47,533 nt of DNA from a virus. The notes under the pieces are model-generated. The model ran no database searches and was not told where the DNA came from. It saw only the letters and a program-made list of their open reading frames with translations. The DNA is taken from positions 1-47,533 of the IMG/VR virus record IMGVR_UViG_3300027963_004927. The stretch is one strand, 5' to 3'. The translations under genes and the position numbers were made by a program. Positions 18,842-31,855 of the stretch are shown here, piece after piece. Within the stretch, counting starts at the first letter, position 1. The number at the start of each line of letters is the position of its first letter.

Positions 18842-19168
18842 TTAGTACGGATTAAAGCTGGATCCGCAGCCGCAAGTGGTTTGGGCTTGTGGATTGTCGA
18901 TCACAAAGCTGGCACCTGATAGATCATCACGATAGTCAATGCGAGCATTTTCCAAGTACTGTGCACTGACAGAATCTACTAATACTTTGACTGTGCCGAA
19001 TTCGTGCACAAAGTCATCTTCGTTTTGAGTTTCATCCAAAGTAAATCCATACTGCATGCCCGAACAACCTCCCCCCTGCACAAATACTCGCAGTCGAGCA
19101 GCAGGGTTATTTTCTTCAGCCAAGATTTCTTGAATTTTGGCAACAGCACCGGGTTCTAGAGTTATCAT
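18842..19168 (-). CDS. erpA: Iron-sulfur cluster insertion protein (ErpA/IscA type)
   Basis: A 108-aa A-type carrier that delivers Fe-S clusters to apoproteins in the cytoplasm. The signature cysteines are complete: [11 protein letters not shown] (C35) and TTCGCGSSF (C99, C101). The length and end match bacterial ErpA. A-type carriers are known as auxiliary genes of aquatic phages. It lies directly behind the superoxide dismutase and IF-1 genes, so the three are likely co-expressed late in infection, which would support damaged Fe-S enzymes under oxidative stress. Confidence 0.92.
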
Positions 19169-19171
19169 GTA

Positions 19172-19732
19172 TTAGAGTCTTTCGTTACAAACGTCCCAGT
19201 TGATGATTTTCCAGATATTATCAAAATACTTTTCTTTATCGCTTTGGTAGTCCAGTGCCCACGCATGCTCCCAGGCATCAATTAACACGCAAATATCTGT
19301 ACGAACAGCATGGTTGGGGATGGTCTTGATTGCGCCACCGGTGCTCAAATAAACCCAACCTGAGCCTTGGATGCCCATGAAAGATTTCTTCATTTCCTCG
19401 CGAAAATCATCATAGGTTTTAAAGTTGCTTTCAATTAGTTCCAGCACAGCACCTCTAGGACGATTTGCGCCTTTGGGGGCTTTTAATTGTGGGAAAAATT
19501 TGTTGTGCAAAAAGCTACCAGCACGATTAAAGTCGGCATTGCCTTCGCCAGCATTGTATCTTTTTGCATAGCCCCGGGCCAGGTGTTCATAGTGATAGTC
19601 AATGGTGGCCGCACTCATTACAAGCTCAAGATCCTTGACACCATACGGCAAGGGCGTGGTTTCCAACTTGGTGGGCTGTGTTCTAGCTTCCACAATGGAG
19701 ATAAAATCAGAGATGGCAGTCATGGTTTCCAT
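19172..19732 (-). CDS. sodB: Iron/manganese superoxide dismutase
   Basis: A 186-aa superoxide dismutase that converts superoxide to peroxide and oxygen. All four metal ligands are present: H47 in IDYHYEHL, H76 in SFLHNKFF, D152 and H156 in LIDAWEHAW; the GSGWVYLS turn is at 123-130. The second-sphere water ligand is unusual: Gly72 where Fe-SODs have Gln, and His141 (IPNHAVR) where Mn-SODs have Gln. The ATG at 19732 follows a TAAATA motif by 4 nt; a start at 19723 behind TGGAAACC is the alternative. No signal peptide, so cytoplasmic. Confidence 0.9.
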   Translation of the reverse strand: METMTAISDFISIVEARTQPTKLETTPLPYGVKDLELVMSAATIDYHYEHLARGYAKRYNAGEGNADFNRAGSFLHNKFFPQLKAPKGANRPRGAVLELIESNFKTYDDFREEMKKSFMGIQGSGWVYLSTGGAIKTIPNHAVRTDICVLIDAWEHAWALDYQSDKEKYFDNIWKIINWDVCNERL

Positions 19733-19736
19733 GGTG

Positions 19737-19742
19737 TATTTA
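19737..19742 (-). promoter_or_regulatory. T4-type late promoter motif, leaderless, for SOD
   Basis: Minus strand ATTAAATACACCATGG: TAAATA ends 4 nt before the ATG at 19732, with no ribosome site between. If the ATG at 19723 is used instead, the leader would still be under 10 nt. Confidence 0.45.
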
Positions 19743-19958
19743 ATTTCTTCTGGTGATGCGACCACGAGTGAGATCATAGGGAGAAAATTCCAGTTCCACT
19801 GCGTCCCCGGCCAAGACCTTGATGTTGTGTTGTCGCATGCGTCCGCTGATGGTGGCCAGCACAGGGTTTTCGAAATTTTCTATCTTCACACGGAACATGG
19901 TGTTGGGCAGGATTTCGTCTACTACTCCGTTCATTTTAACTGTTTCTTCTTTGGCCAT
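19740..19958 (-). CDS. infA: Translation initiation factor IF-1
   Basis: A 72-aa OB-fold protein matching bacterial IF-1 over its whole length: [20 protein letters not shown], then [30 protein letters not shown] and [15 protein letters not shown]-1 binds the A site of the 30S subunit and helps IF-2 and IF-3 during initiation. The VDEILP and GRMR-H variants look more like the Burkholderiales copies than E. coli. There is no Shine-Dalgarno; a TAAATA motif lies 5 nt before the ATG, so the IF-1 mRNA itself should be leaderless. Confidence 0.93.
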
Positions 19959-19963
19959 TGAAG

Positions 19964-19969
19964 TATTTA
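19964..19969 (-). promoter_or_regulatory. T4-type late promoter motif, leaderless, for IF-1
   Basis: Minus strand GAATAAATACTTCAATGG. TAAATA shares its TAA with the stop codon of the 117-aa gene and ends 5 nt before the ATG at 19958, so the start codon is the expected first base. Confidence 0.5.
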
Positions 19970-20320
19970 TTCAAAATTGACTTCGGCAGTGACTTTCCGC
20001 AGCCGGTCATATCTAAAGCTGCGCCACTGCTGCAGATCCAGATCAAACACACGCTGAGTTTCGGAATCCCGACTTTCAGTGGATTCGTGCACCTGAATGT
20101 TCTGCAAGGGCATGCGACCAATGTCAAGTGTGCAGCGCATGTTTCTCACAGTGCCATCGGCCTTGACAAAGGTCACTTGAACTTCAGTGGCCTGTAACAG
20201 ACTGCGCACCCAGTCGCGAATGATGGCTCGATTGGCTTCGGTGGCCTCTTGATACTGACTGCCAGCTTGACCTTTCAGCAGCCTGACTATTTCCTGTTGT
20301 TCCCAAAGGGTGTTGTTCAT
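19967..20320 (-). CDS. SH3-like beta-barrel phage protein (117 aa)
   Basis: Blocks [20 protein letters not shown] and [16 protein letters not shown] match a small beta-barrel family widespread in T4-type phages (SH3 fold, ending with the W-R-S-F-R strand). The role is unknown; several such proteins bind nucleic acid. The start at 20320 has GGGGAT 5 nt upstream; ATG at 20332 is a poorer choice. It closes the operon of FxLKW genes. Confidence 0.75.
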
Positions 20321-20322
20321 GC

Positions 20323-20517
20323 TTATCCCCATTTCAACGCAAACATAATGGCCATCTGCTCATTGTCGAGATCAATATATCTCTGGTTCCTATTAGAAAC
20401 CGAAATTCCCCGAAATTCAAATCTCCAATTGCCTTTTCCAACATTTTTGTCAAGCCAATGCTTCATTTCCCGCCAACTGTCAGCATCACGCCAAGTTACC
20501 ATAATTCTGTATCTCAT
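20323..20517 (-). CDS. FxLKW-family small phage protein, copy 1 (64 aa)
   Basis: MRYRIMVTWRDADSWREMKH, then YIDLDNEQMAIMFALKWG at the C-terminus. It shows the family layout: first strand, helix with a central tryptophan (REMKHWLDKNV), then hairpin ending in F-A-L-K-W just before the stop. The start is fixed by ATGA overlap with copy 2. Function unknown; fold may be a small beta-alpha-beta-beta. Confidence 0.7.
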   Translation of the reverse strand: MRYRIMVTWRDADSWREMKHWLDKNVGKGNWRFEFRGISVSNRNQRYIDLDNEQMAIMFALKWG

Positions 20518-20741
20518 GCCCACTTTAACAAAAAACAAGTGCGATCTTGTTCACGTTCAAACTCAAACACACCTTCGCCTACATAACGCCAGGCCCAGGC
20601 ACGAGTGGAACCAGTGCCAAACTGTTCAATACACCAGTCTATACAAGGTTGCCATCCACGATAGGCTTCCACTGCTCCACCAAGACTGGGTCCGGGCGCC
20701 ATTACCGAGGCCACATATCGGCCCGACAGAGTGTTCTTCAT
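20514..20741 (-). CDS. FxLKW-family small phage protein, copy 2 (75 aa)
   Basis: MKNTLSGRYVASVMAPGPSL leads to a helix GWQPCIDWCIEQFG and a C-terminal hairpin YVGEGVFEFEREQDRTCFLL-KWA. Compared with copy 1 it has an extra glycine-rich loop after the first strand. ATGA overlap at both ends. Function unknown. Confidence 0.7.
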   Translation of the reverse strand: MKNTLSGRYVASVMAPGPSLGGAVEAYRGWQPCIDWCIEQFGTGSTRAWAWRYVGEGVFEFEREQDRTCFLLKWA

Positions 20742-20920
20742 CGCCATTTCAGTGCAAAAAATTCAGCATCCTGCGCCGCTACAAATTCAAAGTCCATGTG
20801 GTCCGAACTAGCGTGAGTCATGTATCGATCTCCCGGTAACCCAAACTGTTCCACAGCCCAGATGCATATACGATTCCAATCTCGCTGATTGTTCCAGGGT
20901 ATTCTCACTCGATGTGTCAT
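20738..20920 (-). CDS. FxLKW-family small phage protein, copy 3 (60 aa)
   Basis: MTHRVRIPWNNQRDWNRICI leads into WAVEQFGLPGDRYM and the hairpin DFEFVAAQDAEFFALKWR. The pieces WxxEQFG and F-x-F-x(6)-D-x-x-F-F-A-L-K-W align well with copies 1 and 2. The start is fixed by ATGA overlap with copy 4. Confidence 0.7.
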   Translation of the reverse strand: MTHRVRIPWNNQRDWNRICIWAVEQFGLPGDRYMTHASSDHMDFEFVAAQDAEFFALKWR

Positions 20921-21132
20921 GACCACCTCAATATAAACAAATCCAGCACACGCGGATCAGGAAAACTCACAGTCATGCCCTGATGCCAAGCATGATGAGT
21001 CAGGCACCACTCGGCTAATTCTGCTTCGTGCTGACCCCAGAATTCGTAGTCACTCAATATGACCACAGCACCTAGGTCAGGATCATGGCTGCCCGGAGTC
21101 GACACGATGAACTTCTGTGTTTGAGTTTTCAT
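20917..21132 (-). CDS. FxLKW-family small phage protein, copy 4 (71 aa)
   Basis: MKTQTQKFIVSTPGSHDPDL begins the protein; helix HEAELAEWCLTHHAWHQG and C-terminal MTVSFPDPRVLDLFILRWS follow the family plan. More diverged than copies 1-3. ATGA overlap with copy 5 upstream. Confidence 0.65.
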   Translation of the reverse strand: MKTQTQKFIVSTPGSHDPDLGAVVILSDYEFWGQHEAELAEWCLTHHAWHQGMTVSFPDPRVLDLFILRWS

Positions 21133-21332
21133 TGGCTCCAGGTCAGCAGGAAAAGAGTTCGAGTAGCCATGTCGGGCATGAGAATCATGTCGGGTTCATG
21201 GGGGTGTATTTGGGCACCATGTCGTTCACACCACACAGTCAAGGCTTCAAGATTGTCCCGAAACCAACGATCATTGTTGATCATGCACAGCAGGGGCTTG
21301 CCACGATTGTCGCAAAATTCAAAATGCGTCAT
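21129..21332 (-). CDS. FxLKW-family small phage protein, copy 5 (67 aa)
   Basis: MTHFEFCDNRGKPLLCMINN, helix NLEALTVWCERHGAQ, end PDMATRTLFLLTWSQ. Threonine replaces the K/R before the final tryptophan. The start at 21332 is set by ATGA overlap with copy 6. Confidence 0.65.
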   Translation of the reverse strand: MTHFEFCDNRGKPLLCMINNDRWFRDNLEALTVWCERHGAQIHPHEPDMILMPDMATRTLFLLTWSQ

Positions 21333-21583
21333 GTTCTTCCCCACCGCAACACAAACCAAGTGTGATCTCTATGGTATCTGAATTTCACATGCATGACCGA
21401 GTCCAAGTGAATCCATCTGGCATGGCGCTCACACAATTCAATGTTGTGATAGATCCACTCCAGAATTTCTGCTCTTTTTTGATGGGCATGATCTGTGCCC
21501 ACTCTCACTGCACATTCATACCAGCCGGGTTGGGTGTTCTCCCAGCCACGATCTGGATGTCCGTCATAGTGGAGCCAGCGCAT
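21329..21583 (-). CDS. FxLKW-family small phage protein, copy 6 (84 aa)
   Basis: MRWLHYDGHPDRGWENTQPG begins the protein; helix RAEILEWIYHNIELC and end VKFRYHRDHTWFVLRWGRT. Three residues follow the signature tryptophan. It is the first gene of the tandem array, 13 nt behind the 132-aa gene, and shares its sigma70-like promoter at 22027-22055. Confidence 0.65.
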   Translation of the reverse strand: MRWLHYDGHPDRGWENTQPGWYECAVRVGTDHAHQKRAEILEWIYHNIELCERHARWIHLDSVMHVKFRYHRDHTWFVLRWGRT

Positions 21584-21595
21584 GTGATCTTCAAT

Positions 21596-21994
21596 TCAAC
21601 CTCGACGCATGCGGCTGATTTCCACAGCTTCTTGGTCTGAAAAAATAGGCACAGAATTGCTCTTGTGCATGACCCCCACGCCAATCATGGCAGTGCCGGT
21701 GTACTGTGGCACTGGCTTGCTGGCGACTGCACCCGAGTGTCCGGTGTCTCTAGAGGGAATGTGAGCAGTATTGGTTCTGCCCACAGGAGTGGTCAGCCGA
21801 TAGCTCAAGGGCTCGGCCTTCATGGCACGTCGACGTCGTTTGTCTTCCGCATCCACGTTCCACTTGTTTTGCAGTTCTTGCCAGTCAGCTGCCAGTTCTC
21901 TGGCTCGGCGTGCTTCTTCGGCGTTGCGAAATTTCTGCCGACCTTTTTTCTTACCATTTAGGCTCAAAGCTGGCCCACAAAGATGCATGGTCAT
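21596..21994 (-). CDS. Conserved phage protein (132 aa)
   Basis: MHLCGPALSLNGKKKGRQKF, a basic helical part (NAEEARRARELAADWQ), then AEPLSYRLTTPVGR and SKPVPQYTGTAMIGVGVMHK, SNSVPIFSDQEAVEISRMRR. This is a protein conserved across many phages (T4-type and T7-type) of unknown function; the SNSVPIFS...ISRMRR end is typical. The start at 21994 has AGGAT about 10 nt upstream and follows promoter 22027-22055. Confidence 0.8.
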   Translation of the reverse strand: MTMHLCGPALSLNGKKKGRQKFRNAEEARRARELAADWQELQNKWNVDAEDKRRRRAMKAEPLSYRLTTPVGRTNTAHIPSRDTGHSGAVASKPVPQYTGTAMIGVGVMHKSNSVPIFSDQEAVEISRMRRG

Positions 21995-22026
21995 GATTGC
22001 AATATCCTGTAATGATTCATGCGTTT

Positions 22027-22055
22027 ATTATAACAAATTGGGATTTTGGTGTCAA
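22027..22055 (-). promoter_or_regulatory. Sigma70-like promoter for the FxLKW operon
   Basis: Minus strand TTGACA (22055-22050), 17-nt spacer, TATAAT (22032-22027), about 30 nt before the ATG at 21994. Near consensus. Confidence 0.85.
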
Positions 22056-22059
22056 CACA

Positions 22060-22371
22060 TTATTTGAACAAGATTGCAGCCATAATCCCGGCCTGCACCA
22101 TGAATCCCACGCCAATTGTAATGATGTTGAGATTGTCCTTGAGCACCACAGCACGACCAAACATCAACACCAGACCAGCCCAGGCAAACAACACTATGTC
22201 CAAGTTGGGTGTGTTGTCACTGAGTCCGGTCAGCAAGGCCAAGAGAGTGGGAATAGTAGCACAGTGAATCACTACCGCAGCCAACCAGCCCAGAGTATCT
22301 GCCGAGATCTTTGGCAGGTGTGTGTTCAAAAACTCATTCATGATGTCGGTGGCGTTGTTCCAGAATTTCAT
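22060..22371 (-). CDS. Membrane protein next to lysin, candidate holin (103 aa)
   Basis: Three hydrophobic stretches: LGWLAAVVIHCATIPTLLAL, LDIVLFAWAGLVLMFG and IITIGVGFMVQAGIMAAILF. Charged residues are at the N-terminus and in the short loops. Its ATG overlaps the stop of the cell-wall hydrolase (ATGA 22371-22368). Size, topology and coupling to the lysin suggest a holin that releases or activates it, although holins have no shared sequence signature; a pinholin or another inner-membrane role is possible. Confidence 0.6.
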   Translation of the reverse strand: MKFWNNATDIMNEFLNTHLPKISADTLGWLAAVVIHCATIPTLLALLTGLSDNTPNLDIVLFAWAGLVLMFGRAVVLKDNLNIITIGVGFMVQAGIMAAILFK

Positions 22372-22946
22372 TTGCGTTCTCCATAAAAAATATGTTGTCC
22401 AATTTGAGCAATCTTGGGTTTGCCCCAGGCGGGATTCACGTAGGTAGCATGATAGTACAGCGCCGTCTTCATGCTGGGCAAGCGAAGACCCTCAAACAGC
22501 ACACGCTTGGCCACTTCTTCACTTTCACGCCACATGGGTGCATGAACCGGTTTGACTCTGTGAGTTCCTTCGCAGTACCATGAGAACTGGCAGACCACTC
22601 GTTCGTAAAAAACATTTTTCTGATAAACTACGCCGCACACAGAATCAGCAAAGCGACCTGACTCCACTCGATTCATGGTGACCTGTGCCACGGCCACTTT
22701 GCCTTCAAAGGGCTCAGAAGCTGCTTCCCAGTAGATGTTTCTGGTGAGACATTCCAATTGTTGCATGCGGTCTTGTGCCGATGCATGCTGTGGCAGTGGT
22801 TCGTTGCCGGTGCTTTTGAGATGACCAAAACGAGCTGTCACCACAGAAAAAATTATTCCGGCTGCCATGATCAAGATCAAGACTTTGAGTGCAAGTCCTA
22901 TCCAGACGGCAATTCTTGCAGGGTTGAATTGTTGATATTGTGACAT
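22368..22946 (-). CDS. Membrane-anchored cell-wall hydrolase (SleB type)
   Basis: A 192-aa endolysin candidate. Residues 11-36 form one transmembrane or signal-anchor helix (IAVWIGLALKVLILIMAAGI). Residues 62-190 are a SleB/CwlJ-type peptidoglycan hydrolase: CLTRNIYWEAASEPFEGKVA with likely catalytic E74, AVAQVTMNRVESGRFADSVC, CQFSWYCEG and the final AQIGQHIFYGE. A signal-anchor lysin would be exported by the host and released when the membrane depolarises. The start has AGGAGG 7 nt upstream; an in-frame ATG at 23039 is probably leader. Confidence 0.85.
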   Translation of the reverse strand: MSQYQQFNPARIAVWIGLALKVLILIMAAGIIFSVVTARFGHLKSTGNEPLPQHASAQDRMQQLECLTRNIYWEAASEPFEGKVAVAQVTMNRVESGRFADSVCGVVYQKNVFYERVVCQFSWYCEGTHRVKPVHAPMWRESEEVAKRVLFEGLRLPSMKTALYYHATYVNPAWGKPKIAQIGQHIFYGERK

Positions 22947-23053
22947 GTTTATCCTCCTGTGTCTTTTCAGACGGTTAATACACAACCGACGGCGCAGTGA
23001 CACACGGAGTTCGCTCGGGCCTGATTGGCCAACTCGCATGAGCCAGGCTGAAT

Positions 23054-23083
23054 ATTATCCAACCCTGCCACGTCAGTTGTCAA
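23054..23083 (-). promoter_or_regulatory. Sigma70-like promoter for lysis genes
   Basis: Minus strand TTGACA (23083-23078), 18-nt spacer, GATAAT (23059-23054), about 105 nt before the hydrolase ATG. The -35 follows the hairpin 23086-23108 almost without a gap. Confidence 0.65.
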
Positions 23084-23085
23084 CA

Positions 23086-23108
23086 AAGAAGCCTCACCCG
23101 AGCTTCTT
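23086..23108 (-). terminator. Weak terminator hairpin before lysis promoter
   Basis: AAGAAGC / GCTTCTT stem of 7 bp with a 9-nt loop, followed on the minus strand by TGTTG. The T-run is poor. It lies just after the stop of the 42-codon ORF and just before the lysis promoter. Confidence 0.4.
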
Positions 23109-23222
23109 GCAAACACGCCGCTTCCTTTCAGAAACGGCAAACAATTCTGCTGCTGATTTGTATGCCGGTTGCAGCCCCGACTGGGGTGTAGCCTTTGATT
23201 TGAAATCATCCACTAAACGCAT
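23094..23222 (-). CDS. Possible 42-aa microprotein
   Basis: An open frame of 42 codons, MRLVDDFKSKATPQSGLQPA, then YKSAAELFAVSERKRRVCKK-LG, with sensible amino acid use, in an otherwise gene-free gap of 420 bp. There is no clear Shine-Dalgarno, so expression is doubtful. It ends in the hairpin 23086-23108. No known family. Confidence 0.35.
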   Translation of the reverse strand: MRLVDDFKSKATPQSGLQPAYKSAAELFAVSERKRRVCKKLG

Positions 23223-23369
23223 TGTTAGCCAGATTGTTGTTGCTACACTCAATTTTACTTAGCAAGTGATGCCGATTTGAGTTTTAGATACATCAATTTG
23301 GCTGGTTTTTGACCATTAACTCAGTAGTTAACTCTCTAGCTGTTATTGTAACAGCACGGAAGATATTTG
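23223..23369. other. Gap without recognised gene
   Basis: Between the 42-codon ORF and the 148-aa gene. It holds a perfect 7-bp hairpin (GCTGTTA-TTG-TAACAGC, 23339-23355) 15 nt after the stop of the 148-aa gene, without a T-run, and a GTTAACTACTGAGTTAA inverted element. No tRNA or known ncRNA was recognised. Confidence 0.5.
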
Positions 23370-23816
23370 TCAATCTGGTTTGGGGCGGCGGGCACTCAGC
23401 TGTGACCACATGTGTTGTTTTTCCAACAACTCGGCCTCCAGCTTTCGGTACTGGTCGCCCAATTCCTGCAGTTGATGCCATTCTGCTTCAAGTGTGCGAT
23501 TTGGCTGCAAAATGTTCAATCGTTCTTGAATACCCTGCAACACTGTCATGAGACTGACACCGTTGATTTCAATGTCGGCCTCCCGGCCCTGGAGGGTCAA
23601 GGTGCCGGCTTTTACACTACTGAAGGTGGGATGCACGGTGTAGCTACCGGTACCAAGGGTATAGTTACCAGTAGCAGACAAACTAGTACTGACCGCAGAG
23701 TTGGCATAGACTGCCCCCACTGCTGGATGCCCAGAGCCTTGAGGCCAACTGGGACTCAAGGACTGACCAAGTGACTCGTAGTAGTCAGAGACAGATGGTA
23801 TCGTGGTCGAGCTCAT
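23370..23816 (-). CDS. Conserved phage protein with coiled-coil end (148 aa)
   Basis: The middle, TLTLQGREADIEINGVSLMT, followed by LQGIQERLNILQPNRTLEAE and QLQELGDQYRKLEAELLEKQ, is a block found in many T4-type cyanophages and pelagiphages. The first 70 residues are Ser/Thr/Gly-rich. Role unknown; perhaps a virion protein. Its ATG overlaps the stop of the 64-aa gene (ATGA). Confidence 0.75.
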   Translation of the reverse strand: MSSTTIPSVSDYYESLGQSLSPSWPQGSGHPAVGAVYANSAVSTSLSATGNYTLGTGSYTVHPTFSSVKAGTLTLQGREADIEINGVSLMTVLQGIQERLNILQPNRTLEAEWHQLQELGDQYRKLEAELLEKQHMWSQLSARRPKPD

Positions 23817-24007
23817 TCAGCCTTGACAGCAGCTAAAGCTTCTTTCTCGGCTGTGATTTCCTTGCGGCGCTCTTTGATGCCTTTGCTCATTTCCTGCAGA
23901 GCTTTGCGGGCACGGGCAGCAGCGGCTTTGACACCTTTGGTAGTGAATTTTTCGTTTGCAGCGATGTAGGCTTCGTAGGCAGCCACAATGGTTTCGTGTT
24001 GTGTCAT
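23813..24007 (-). CDS. Basic helical protein, histone-like (64 aa)
   Basis: MTQHETIVAAYEAYIAANEK, then GVKAAAARARKALQEMSKGI and KERRKEI: a lysine/alanine/arginine-rich helical protein resembling small histone-like or nucleoid-binding phage proteins conserved in T4-type phages. DNA binding is plausible from charge, not shown. ATGA overlaps with both neighbours. Confidence 0.65.
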   Translation of the reverse strand: MTQHETIVAAYEAYIAANEKFTTKGVKAAAARARKALQEMSKGIKERRKEITAEKEALAAVKAE

Positions 24008-24246
24008 GGGTTTTCCTTTTTTACTATTAAAACTTCCACACCCTGTGCCACGGCTGACTTCAAATCATTGTCATAGGTGTCGGGGTTCCGCACAAGATGT
24101 TGAACCTGGCGATTCCCAAAAAATGATTCCATGGCTTGATCTTGATGCAGTGGTGATTCCAGCTCGCTGGTGCCGGCTGCAATCAAGGCCTCGTGATAGT
24201 CGTAAATTAGCAAATCTCGACCAGGTGTGATACGATATGTCAGCAT
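24004..24246 (-). CDS. Operon-head protein with leaderless start (80 aa)
   Basis: MLTYRITPGRDLLIYDYHEA, then FFGNRQVQHLVRNPDTYDND and AQGVEVLIVKK. Unknown function. It heads a three-gene operon (80, 64 and 148 aa) joined by ATGA overlaps. The ATG lies 8 nt behind a TATAAT box, so the mRNA should start within about two bases of it; no ribosome site fits in the space. Confidence 0.65.
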   Translation of the reverse strand: MLTYRITPGRDLLIYDYHEALIAAGTSELESPLHQDQAMESFFGNRQVQHLVRNPDTYDNDLKSAVAQGVEVLIVKKENP

Positions 24247-24254
24247 GTAAATTA

Positions 24255-24282
24255 ATTATACTGCAACAAATCATGAAGTCAA
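24255..24282 (-). promoter_or_regulatory. Sigma70-like promoter, leaderless
   Basis: Minus strand TTGACT (24282-24277), 16-nt spacer, TATAAT (24260-24255), then TAATTTAC and ATG at 24246. Confidence 0.7.
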
Positions 24283-24302
24283 ATTAGCATTGGCCAAAAT
24301 GA

Positions 24303-24536
24303 CTAGATATGGCGACGCAGCCAAGTGTCCCAGATCACAACATCATCCCAGCCATGTGTCCAGGTCACTGTAAAAAGGTTCAGGGTATTTTGATCCATGA
24401 TCTGCAGTCGGTGATCTTCGATTCGTGCGTGTGCATTGCGATTGGCTGCTAACCATTCACCAAATTGAACACGAATTTGTGGCACCCGGGATATGACCAA
24501 GAATAACGGTTCCCCGGAGCGGACGGCGTTGGACAT
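24303..24536 (-). CDS. Diverged FxLKW-like protein (77 aa)
   Basis: MSNAVRSGEPLFLVISRVPQ, helix VQFGEWLAANRN, then HRLQIMDQNTLNLFTVTW matches the plan strand / Trp-containing helix / hairpin with F-x-V-T-W, followed here by an extra 19 residues (THGWDDVVIWDTWLRRHI). Probably an outlying paralog of the 20.3-21.6 kb array; the extra tail may be a readthrough extension. No ribosome site is evident. Confidence 0.5.
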   Translation of the reverse strand: MSNAVRSGEPLFLVISRVPQIRVQFGEWLAANRNAHARIEDHRLQIMDQNTLNLFTVTWTHGWDDVVIWDTWLRRHI

Positions 24537-24563
24537 GTATTAGTTATGCCAAAACGTCAGGCC

Positions 24564-24588
24564 AAAAAAAAGTGGCCCGAGGGCCACT
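24564..24588 (-). terminator. Rho-independent terminator
   Basis: Minus strand AGTGGCCC-TC-GGGCCACT followed by eight T, 23 nt after the stop of the 111-aa gene. A strong intrinsic terminator. Confidence 0.85.
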
Positions 24589-24610
24589 GTTGCTGTTGCC
24601 AAGTCAAGTG

Positions 24611-24946
24611 TTAGACTTCGACCTTGGACCAGTTGCGCTCTTCGGTAGCTGCAATTTTTGAACCTGCCACCTTGACTTCACCGCGCTTGGCAATGCGAGT
24701 CTTTTCGGCCAGTTTATTGGCCACAGCATAGCCAGCATCACCTGAAGTCATGCCCAAGCTCTGCAGGTGCTTGAGTGCCTCCAGCTTGGTCATGGCCTGG
24801 GGCAGTTCCACCAAGTTGATGTCGGTACAGCCGGCCTTGTTCAAGATCTTGATACGTGCTACCAAGTCATTGGCAAAGCGAGCTTTCACAGTACCATCTG
24901 CGTTTTTAGCGGTACCAGCCACGGTGAACATTTTTTCGGTTGTCAT
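24611..24946 (-). CDS. Conserved early phage protein (111 aa)
   Basis: MFTVAGTAKNADGTVKARFA, then NDLVARIKILNKAGCTDINL and LPQAMTKLEALKHLQ. I recognise this as a protein common in T4-type cyanophages; function unknown. The start at 24946 has AAAGG about 8 nt upstream. It is transcribed from 25019-25047 and ends at a strong terminator, so it is a single-gene unit, which suggests abundant early expression. Confidence 0.75.
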   Translation of the reverse strand: MTTEKMFTVAGTAKNADGTVKARFANDLVARIKILNKAGCTDINLVELPQAMTKLEALKHLQSLGMTSGDAGYAVANKLAEKTRIAKRGEVKVAGSKIAATEERNWSKVEV

Positions 24947-25018
24947 ATAAAGTTGCCTTTCAAAGTTGCCTATTAAAGTTAAGTTAAAAACACATGCTGC
25001 AATTTGCAACATATCTAC

Positions 25019-25047
25019 AGTTTAGTAGAAATTGGGTTTGGTGTCAA
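25019..25047 (-). promoter_or_regulatory. Sigma70-like promoter inside an inverted repeat
   Basis: Minus strand TTGACA (25047-25042), 17-nt spacer, TAAACT (25024-25019). An exact 12-bp inverted repeat AGTAGAAATTGG / CCAATTTCTACT spans the -35 and spacer and could be an operator. The mRNA leader is about 65 nt. Confidence 0.7.
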
Positions 25048-25059
25048 CCAATTTCTACT
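25025..25059. repeat. 12-bp inverted repeat over a promoter
   Basis: AGTAGAAATTGG, about 12-nt centre with the -35 box, CCAATTTCTACT. The left arm alone recurs at the promoter 25570-25598. Confidence 0.7.
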
Positions 25060-25149
25060 CAACGAGATTCTGGGATTTGTCCATTTCGGCTGAGATTTTG
25101 GCTCTGGGTCTTGATGGCCTCAATGCCCGAATCTGCAATTTGTGCAATT
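25043..25149. repeat. 107-bp exact direct repeat, copy 1
   Basis: Identical over 107 bp to 25594-25700. It contains the last 30 codons of the 50-aa protein gene and the -35 region of the downstream promoter. Here it lies at the 3' end of the 138-aa gene, which runs into it in another reading frame. Confidence 0.9.
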
Positions 25150-25536
25150 TGACTCTTCTTCTGCGTACTCAGGGCTGGTATCGATATTGATCGTACCTAT
25201 GCTAATGACACCACCTGAACTAAACGTAGTAAAGTCCCGCACAAACTCTACAACACATCCGCCTGCCACTGAGTTGCTTGGGTCTGTGAAGTCAATGTCC
25301 TCTACAGCCACGCAACCAATAAGACCTGCGTCTACATCATAGCTTTTACCTGTTTCATCAAAGTAATTGCCATCACCGTACATGGTGGTGTAAGTGGCAA
25401 AGCGAGTGCCATCCTTGAGATTAAACTCACCATCTAGCACACTATTTCCGTTGATGGTCAAAGCGCAAAATTCTTCCCAACGATCGTGTAGCACATAGCA
25501 CAGATCACCCACATAATACTTGCCAGCTTTCATCAT
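25120..25536 (-). CDS. Conserved phage protein with replaced C-terminus (138 aa)
   Basis: MMKAGKYYVGDLCYVLHDRW begins a small beta-rich protein of a kind common in large phages (MKAGKYYVGDPCYV start); further blocks are TRFATYTTMYGDGNYFDETG and GLIGCVAVEDIDF. Function unknown. The last nine residues, NCTNCRFGH, are encoded inside repeat copy 1 in a frame different from the one used in copy 2, so the original end of the protein has been lost. GGAG precedes the ATG. Confidence 0.75.
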   Translation of the reverse strand: MMKAGKYYVGDLCYVLHDRWEEFCALTINGNSVLDGEFNLKDGTRFATYTTMYGDGNYFDETGKSYDVDAGLIGCVAVEDIDFTDPSNSVAGGCVVEFVRDFTTFSSGGVISIGTINIDTSPEYAEEESNCTNCRFGH

Positions 25537-25569
25537 ATCAAACTCCGCTAATTAACTCACTATACATAT

Positions 25570-25598
25570 ATTATACCAGAAATGCCGTTTTTAGTCAA
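25570..25598 (-). promoter_or_regulatory. Sigma70-like promoter
   Basis: Minus strand TTGACT (25598-25593), 17-nt spacer, TATAAT (25575-25570), about 27 nt before the mRNA's ATG at 25536. Confidence 0.85.
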
Positions 25599-31592: not shown

Positions 31593-31622
31593 AGTTTAAC
31601 AAAAACCACCCAGTGTTGTCAA
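31593..31622 (-). promoter_or_regulatory. Sigma70-like promoter with embedded stop codon
   Basis: Minus strand TTGACA (31622-31617), 18-nt spacer, TAAACT (31598-31593). The TGA stop of the upstream FxLRW gene is inside the -35 box. Confidence 0.7.
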
Positions 31623-31855
31623 CGCCAACGCAAGGCAAAGGTCATGTAATCGCGTTCGCTGTCGAAATAAAAAATATACCTGCCCAAGCGATCAGGTGCA
31701 CTGGATTCCACCAGCTGCCAACGCCAGTCTTCGCTGAGTGCCATTTTGCACCAGTCCAGCACCTGTTCGATCATGCCCCAGGGTTTGGCAATTTCCATGG
31801 CATGTGAAAAACTCACAGCATCACGCAAGTATTCCAGTGGTGGGTCAAGCAACAT
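31619..31855 (-). CDS. FxLRW-family small phage protein (78 aa)
   Basis: MLLDPPLEYLRDAVSFSHAM, helix MIEQVLDWCKMALSED and end YIFYFDSERDYMTFALRWR. This is a clear relative of the six-gene array at 20.3-21.6 kb, with the same Trp-centred helix and F-x-L-R-W end, but 10 kb away. It overlaps the 86-aa gene by 11 nt. Confidence 0.65.
   Translation of the reverse strand: MLLDPPLEYLRDAVSFSHAMEIAKPWGMIEQVLDWCKMALSEDWRWQLVESSAPDRLGRYIFYFDSERDYMTFALRWR

Follow-up and report, generated by a model that had tools for sequence, protein, structure and literature searches.

A family of small phage proteins ending in FxLxW, with members in a tandem overlapping array and in cultivated jumbo phages

Introduction

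The jumbo phage Bacillus phage G is an example of a lineage in which a single small domain has multiplied: its zinc-ribbon family has expanded to about 35 copies (PMC7824862). Genes packed closely together have also been linked to joint expression and assembly: short gene overlaps couple translation (PMC6728339), and overlapping gene pairs are enriched among the subunits of heteromeric complexes (PMC10666635). Here we analyse the 47,533-base virus record IMGVR_UViG_3300027963_004927 (the window, meaning the whole stretch of DNA at that length), in which a small domain is likewise multiplied. The phage G family is a zinc ribbon with metal ligands, whereas the family described here has a different fold, carries no conserved Cys/His set and finds no match in phage G.

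Closer comparisons are few. The ferredoxin-like domains of PII, ACT, KH and EF-G domain III present elements 1 to 5 in the same order and arrangement, but the array family lacks their final strand and shows neither a sequence relation nor a significant structure match to them. Proteins of uncultured Caudovirales in BFVD (for example, A0A6J7WFP6) have the same fold, with identity of up to 40%, and are bare database entries without description. By profile, EST35_0247, EST35_0274 and EST35_0275 of Pseudomonas phage PA5oct, together with unnamed proteins of Sinorhizobium phage Phosso and Agrobacterium phage Atu_ph07, belong to the same superfamily; these copies lie mostly outside long coupled arrays and have no assigned function. 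No model common to the members exists in PHROGs, Pfam, NCBIfam or PADLOC, where matches are scattered and confined to single members, and a search of open-licence papers found no description of an FxLxW family, which is apparently undescribed. Two candidate relatives were rejected. NDUFS4 (PF04800) was reached at E 0.3-0.4 in one direction, and a search in the reverse direction found nothing in four phages that carry members; the Csx3/Crn3 ring nuclease was matched by 1 of 71 members at E 0.007 and by at most one, at 0.09, in another scan, which is about chance level.

Array genes and homology of the copies

Six short minus-strand genes run head to tail between 20323 and 21583, each overlapping the next by 4 nt (ATGA), with the overall span and the lengths given in an earlier note made from the sequence. 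They are gene f (21329-21583; 84 aa, ending FVLRWGRT), e (21129-21332; 67 aa, FLLTWSQ), d (20917-21132; 71 aa, FILRWS), c (20738-20920; 60 aa, FALKWR), b (20514-20741; 75 aa, FLLKWA, with orthologues in 34 viral loci) and a (20323-20517; 64 aa, FALKWG), so that FxLxW is followed by 1-3 residues before the stop codon. A seventh minus-strand gene, uncoupled to other copies, encodes 78 aa ending FALRWR (31619-31855). Among the 608 stop-to-stop open reading frames (ORFs) of at least 40 aa in the window, exactly these seven end in FxLxW; the rate in shuffled ORFs is 0.0004.

A shared ending and a common origin had been proposed in the earlier note, and both are borne out for the seven genes. A profile of relatives from IMG/VR contigs, from which window sequences and the orthologues of 20514-20741 were held out, recovered 7/7 window copies at E values of 3.4e-8 to 1.3e-4 (31619-31855, 3.5e-7; gene f, 6.7e-6; gene e, 7.9e-6; gene c, 4.6e-5; gene d, 1.3e-4; genes a and b likewise recovered), compared with 0.046 for the next window ORF and 0.53 for the best of 10x shuffles. 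Run against 2,128 frames of other loci, a window-only profile gave 59 matches at E<=0.01, of which 53 were motif-bearing seeds. BLAST links only the closest window pair (20514-20741 and 20738-20920, E 4.6e-5), and tblastn with single members against named phages found Phosso alone, weakly; BLAST fails because the sequences have diverged, and profiles are needed.

In nearly all of the 190 copies collected, the domain extends to the stop codon. Near-invariant positions are the hydrophobic F, L and W/F/Y, the Trp of helix 1 and one K/R, and the alignments contain no conserved catalytic set and no conserved Cys/His set. Because profiles and predicted fold (the latter from separate alignments, below) both make the copies homologous paralogues, repeated duplication and divergence is the correct description, and the copies almost certainly constitute one real, so far unnamed family.

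The family does not extend to the minus-strand gene at 24303-24536, which had been read as a diverged copy. The held-out profile connecting the seven copies misses it, a 190-member profile scores it at 0.6 bits with an alignment misplaced off the motif, and its FTVTW is internal, followed by 17 further residues. Encoding 77 aa, it is nonetheless a real conserved gene (96% identity and dN/dS 0.12 against a close relative).

Upstream, the minus-strand sequence at 22027-22055 matches the sigma-70 consensus TTGACA-17-TATAAT at 12/12 positions, with TG before the -10 element, and is kept in L121, a relative with 92.7% DNA identity. Contrary to the earlier note, this promoter-like site is not the array's own: it first precedes a non-member gene for a 132-aa protein (21596-21994, minus strand; MTMHLCGP...; dN/dS 0.15) that opens the operon, with the array downstream. 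From these promoter matches we infer that the array may act early. Homologues of the 132-aa protein are encoded close to IF-1 and superoxide dismutase (SOD) genes in contigs L012 and L016. Further near-consensus sigma-70 sites (11/12) stand ahead of small genes on the minus strand at 23083-25598, so that this entire stretch may be an early region made up of small genes.

Directly after the array lies a minus-strand WYL_2 gene (19967-20332; Pfam PF10902, E 4e-13), and WYL_2 is also the next gene after single family members in contigs L057 and L064. Beyond it in the window are adjacent genes for an IF-1 homologue (19740-19958, by Pfam), a SOD-like protein (19172-19777, by eye) and an Fe-S assembly protein (18842-19168, by Pfam). 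Homologues of IF-1 and SOD recur in L012 and L016, of IF-1 in Phosso and of SOD in PA5oct.

Predicted fold

AlphaFold2 models were obtained for two array proteins from separate alignments. For gene b, an alignment of 59 family rows, with Phosso rows left out, gave a model with pLDDT 86.9 and pTM 0.74 (strand 9-12, helix 31-41, strands 51-55 and 58-61, helix 64-74); for gene a, an alignment without the orthologues of 20514-20741 gave pLDDT 88.7 and pTM 0.72 (strand 3-7, helix 12-25, strands 31-36 and 45-50, helix 53-63). The two predictions share one topology instead of unrelated ones, and the family fold is predicted to be beta-alpha-beta-beta-alpha, a ferredoxin-like sandwich minus its fourth and last strand, modelled for genes a and b and extended to the others by alignment. 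In these models the conserved Trp lies in helix 1, as had been drawn from the sequence. The FxLxW motif, which the same sketch placed at the end of a hairpin, falls elsewhere: both models put the beta hairpin earlier and, given their topology, the motif sits in the C-terminal helix.

Searches of the PDB with the two models gave no significant match (best Foldseek E 0.23 and 1.3; highest VIA Z 6.6 and 4.3). Matches to KH, RRM and other ferredoxin-like domains (VIA Z <=6.6, Foldseek E >=0.2) are generic for the topology, and we therefore claim no fold family beyond ferredoxin-like. In BFVD, the closest models (E 2.6e-5 at best) are of uncharacterised proteins from uncultured phages.

The predicted fold is a common one and would also fit nucleic-acid binding. 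Each copy could use a sheet face like that of KH or RRM domains to recognise its own RNA or DNA site, and the copies together would form a set of small post-transcriptional regulators. The appearance of KH, RRM and translation-factor domains among the weak structural neighbours points this way, as does the location of members near genes for tRNA, RNA ligase and peptidyl-tRNA hydrolase in Phosso and Atu_ph07. Against this, those structural matches are all generic for the topology, and the alignments reveal neither a conserved positive patch, the Lys/Arg of the last helix aside, nor a KH GxxG loop; we regard such regulators as rather unlikely.

Distribution in phages

Family matches occurred in 13/13 records first collected, and uncultivated large-phage contigs of up to 345 kb carry 2 to 14 copies at E 0.01. 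The largest set is that of Phosso (469 kb): a profile without Phosso rows made 46 matches at E<=10, about 30 of them at E<=0.01, and one with Phosso rows found 48 copies at E<=0.01, to be set against 735 annotated features. At their ends, Phosso copies carry a longer version of the motif, AMLFKLxW; many of them stand alone or in groups of a few. With the rows of the phage concerned left out, profiles also found about 7 copies in Atu_ph07 (best E 5.4e-7) and 3 in PA5oct (best E 1.2e-6). Some Phosso copies (L118, 23357-23800 and 24044-24526) appear to have extra N-terminal hydrophobic segments, membrane-spanning in appearance, hinting at membrane-tethered versions.

Profile searches of T4, phiKZ, P-SSM2, S-TIM5, HTVC008M, phiM12, RaK2, XaC1, phage G and SCTP-2 returned nothing credible. 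Matches in T4 and SCTP-2 at E 0.065 were dismissed as chance; that in T4 contains internal stop codons and falls within the long reading frame of another gene. Two orthologous groups were also scanned against 84,980 bacterial and archaeal genomes, and since these scans returned no relatives, no host or cellular source is identified. The family is thus wide but patchy in its occurrence among large phages, with copy numbers from 2 to about 50, and is best explained as an ancient protein superfamily, its members about 60-110 aa long, known so far from phages only.

More than ten related contigs, mostly from one clade, have the array flanked by the gene for a MoxR ATPase on one side and that for its vWA partner on the other. 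This arrangement is seen between MoxR AAA+ ATPase and vWA-metallopeptidase genes in L006, L007, L009-L011, L013, L015, L017-L019, L085 and L087, where the interval often includes a gene for a 504-aa radical SAM protein. The pair has been proposed to act in virion assembly (PMC7824862), and members in Phosso and Atu_ph07 lie a few kb or less from it, which would be consistent with the family proteins being clients, adaptors or regulators of the chaperone pair in virion assembly or protein quality control. We nevertheless consider this quite improbable: the linked contigs come mostly from that single clade, the surroundings of the array in the window yielded no MoxR gene, the copies of Phosso are distributed across its genome, and PA5oct members lie at least 50 kb from the pair and are absent from the proteins marked as mass-spectrometry-detected.

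Selection and age of the copies

Across seven orthologous groups, median dN/dS ranged from 0.08 to 0.26, and the highest single pair reached 0.63. Comparison of the window with a 92.7%-identical contig over 4 kb gave 0.24 for gene e, 0.18 for gene f and 0.03 for 31619-31855, with neighbouring genes in a similar range. Positive selection was not found in the orthologous groups or in the window-versus-relative pairs by pairwise dN/dS, a simple estimate that could miss a few selected sites. Paralogues within one phage share about 20-30% identity, well below the 50-85% between orthologues of different phages, and the duplications are therefore old. Each copy also seems to be maintained by selection in its own right. 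In contig G022 (L121, L124), which matches window 21126-25149 at 92.7% identity, the dS of gene e is 0.60 against mostly 0.02-0.34 for its neighbours, possibly reflecting local allele exchange at gene e.

These values bear on the arms race suggested in the earlier note. In such a contest with the host, the proteins would be anti-defence decoys or inhibitors, one defence system being blocked by each copy, as might suit small proteins behind a strong early-type promoter whose copy number differs between phages and for which the prokaryote scans with two orthologous groups found no cellular relatives. A fast race is not supported, given the purifying selection in every group tested (dN/dS of 0.03-0.26 across group medians and window pairs) and the age of the paralogues. 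No member convincingly matches a PADLOC defence protein or a known anti-defence family, and about 50 copies are retained in one genome. Taken together, these observations make an anti-defence role unlikely.

Motif codons as a putative ribosome-binding site

Coupling by ATGA or TAATG is frequent among the copies, and many others are uncoupled. In coupled copies, AGG serves as the codon for the Arg preceding the last Trp/Phe in 29/41 cases, as against 77 of 927 Arg codons (8%) elsewhere in the same frames. When copies are clustered at 45% identity, AGG is preferred in 21/27 coupled clusters versus 3/16 uncoupled ones. The codons TTG-AGG-TGG include GAGGTGG, a Shine-Dalgarno sequence about 5 bases ahead of the next ATG, and at the junction of genes d and c the candidate GAGGTGG lies within the Leu-Arg-Trp codons of gene d (20923-20929, minus strand), with GAGG 5 nt ahead of the ATG of gene c at 20920. 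Codon statistics thus lead us to infer that TTG-AGG-TGG probably acts as the ribosome-binding site for the next gene.

We reject the idea that the motif arose by convergence solely to serve as a Shine-Dalgarno site, as F, L, K/R and W/F/Y are all kept in uncoupled copies. K/R occupies the motif position in 90% of these, encoded by other codons; the motif is therefore retained for the protein, with its codons tuned for the next gene.

A gene whose end supplies the next ribosome-binding site could also behave as a self-spreading cassette, duplicates being expressed at once and persisting by a ratchet with little individual function. TTG-AGG-TGG does precede ATGA in most coupled copies, as this would predict. 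Many copies are uncoupled, however, and the low dN/dS in all groups tested, which indicates that individual copies matter, already weakens an account that we hold to be very improbable.

Discussion

The reading that we favour, at a probability of roughly 0.4, is that the family proteins are small modules that bind other proteins, act early and are not enzymes, being produced in coupled sets and probably serving as hetero-oligomeric adaptors. That they are protein-binding and not enzymatic is suggested because no conserved catalytic set is present. The C-terminal helix would pack the core and maintain the fold, leaving the choice of partner to the variable N-terminal half and the loops, and an open edge strand may let unlike copies pair. 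Coupling through ATGA overlaps would yield the copies in sets, probably early in infection, and the sets might then assemble as hetero-oligomers or act in parallel on the machinery of host or phage. The scattered copies of Phosso speak against this favoured reading, as they would be unexpected for one fixed complex.

A bolder version is also conceivable, and we think it a long shot. Here, a phage-only superfamily in which the motif also gives the following gene its ribosome-binding site would provide plug-in cassettes, made as a set in fixed ratio and joining into mixed oligomers, and thereby a combinatorial host-takeover complex in giant phages.

Because PA5oct, Atu_ph07 and Phosso are cultivable carriers, the role of the family is directly testable. 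At about 6% of the annotated features of Phosso, kept by selection and without a Pfam, PHROGs or NCBIfam entry, it is a substantial item in the dark matter of jumbo phages. Last codons in dual use, as protein motif and as putative ribosome-binding site, would offer a simple mechanism by which tandem arrays of small genes may grow and stay expressed.
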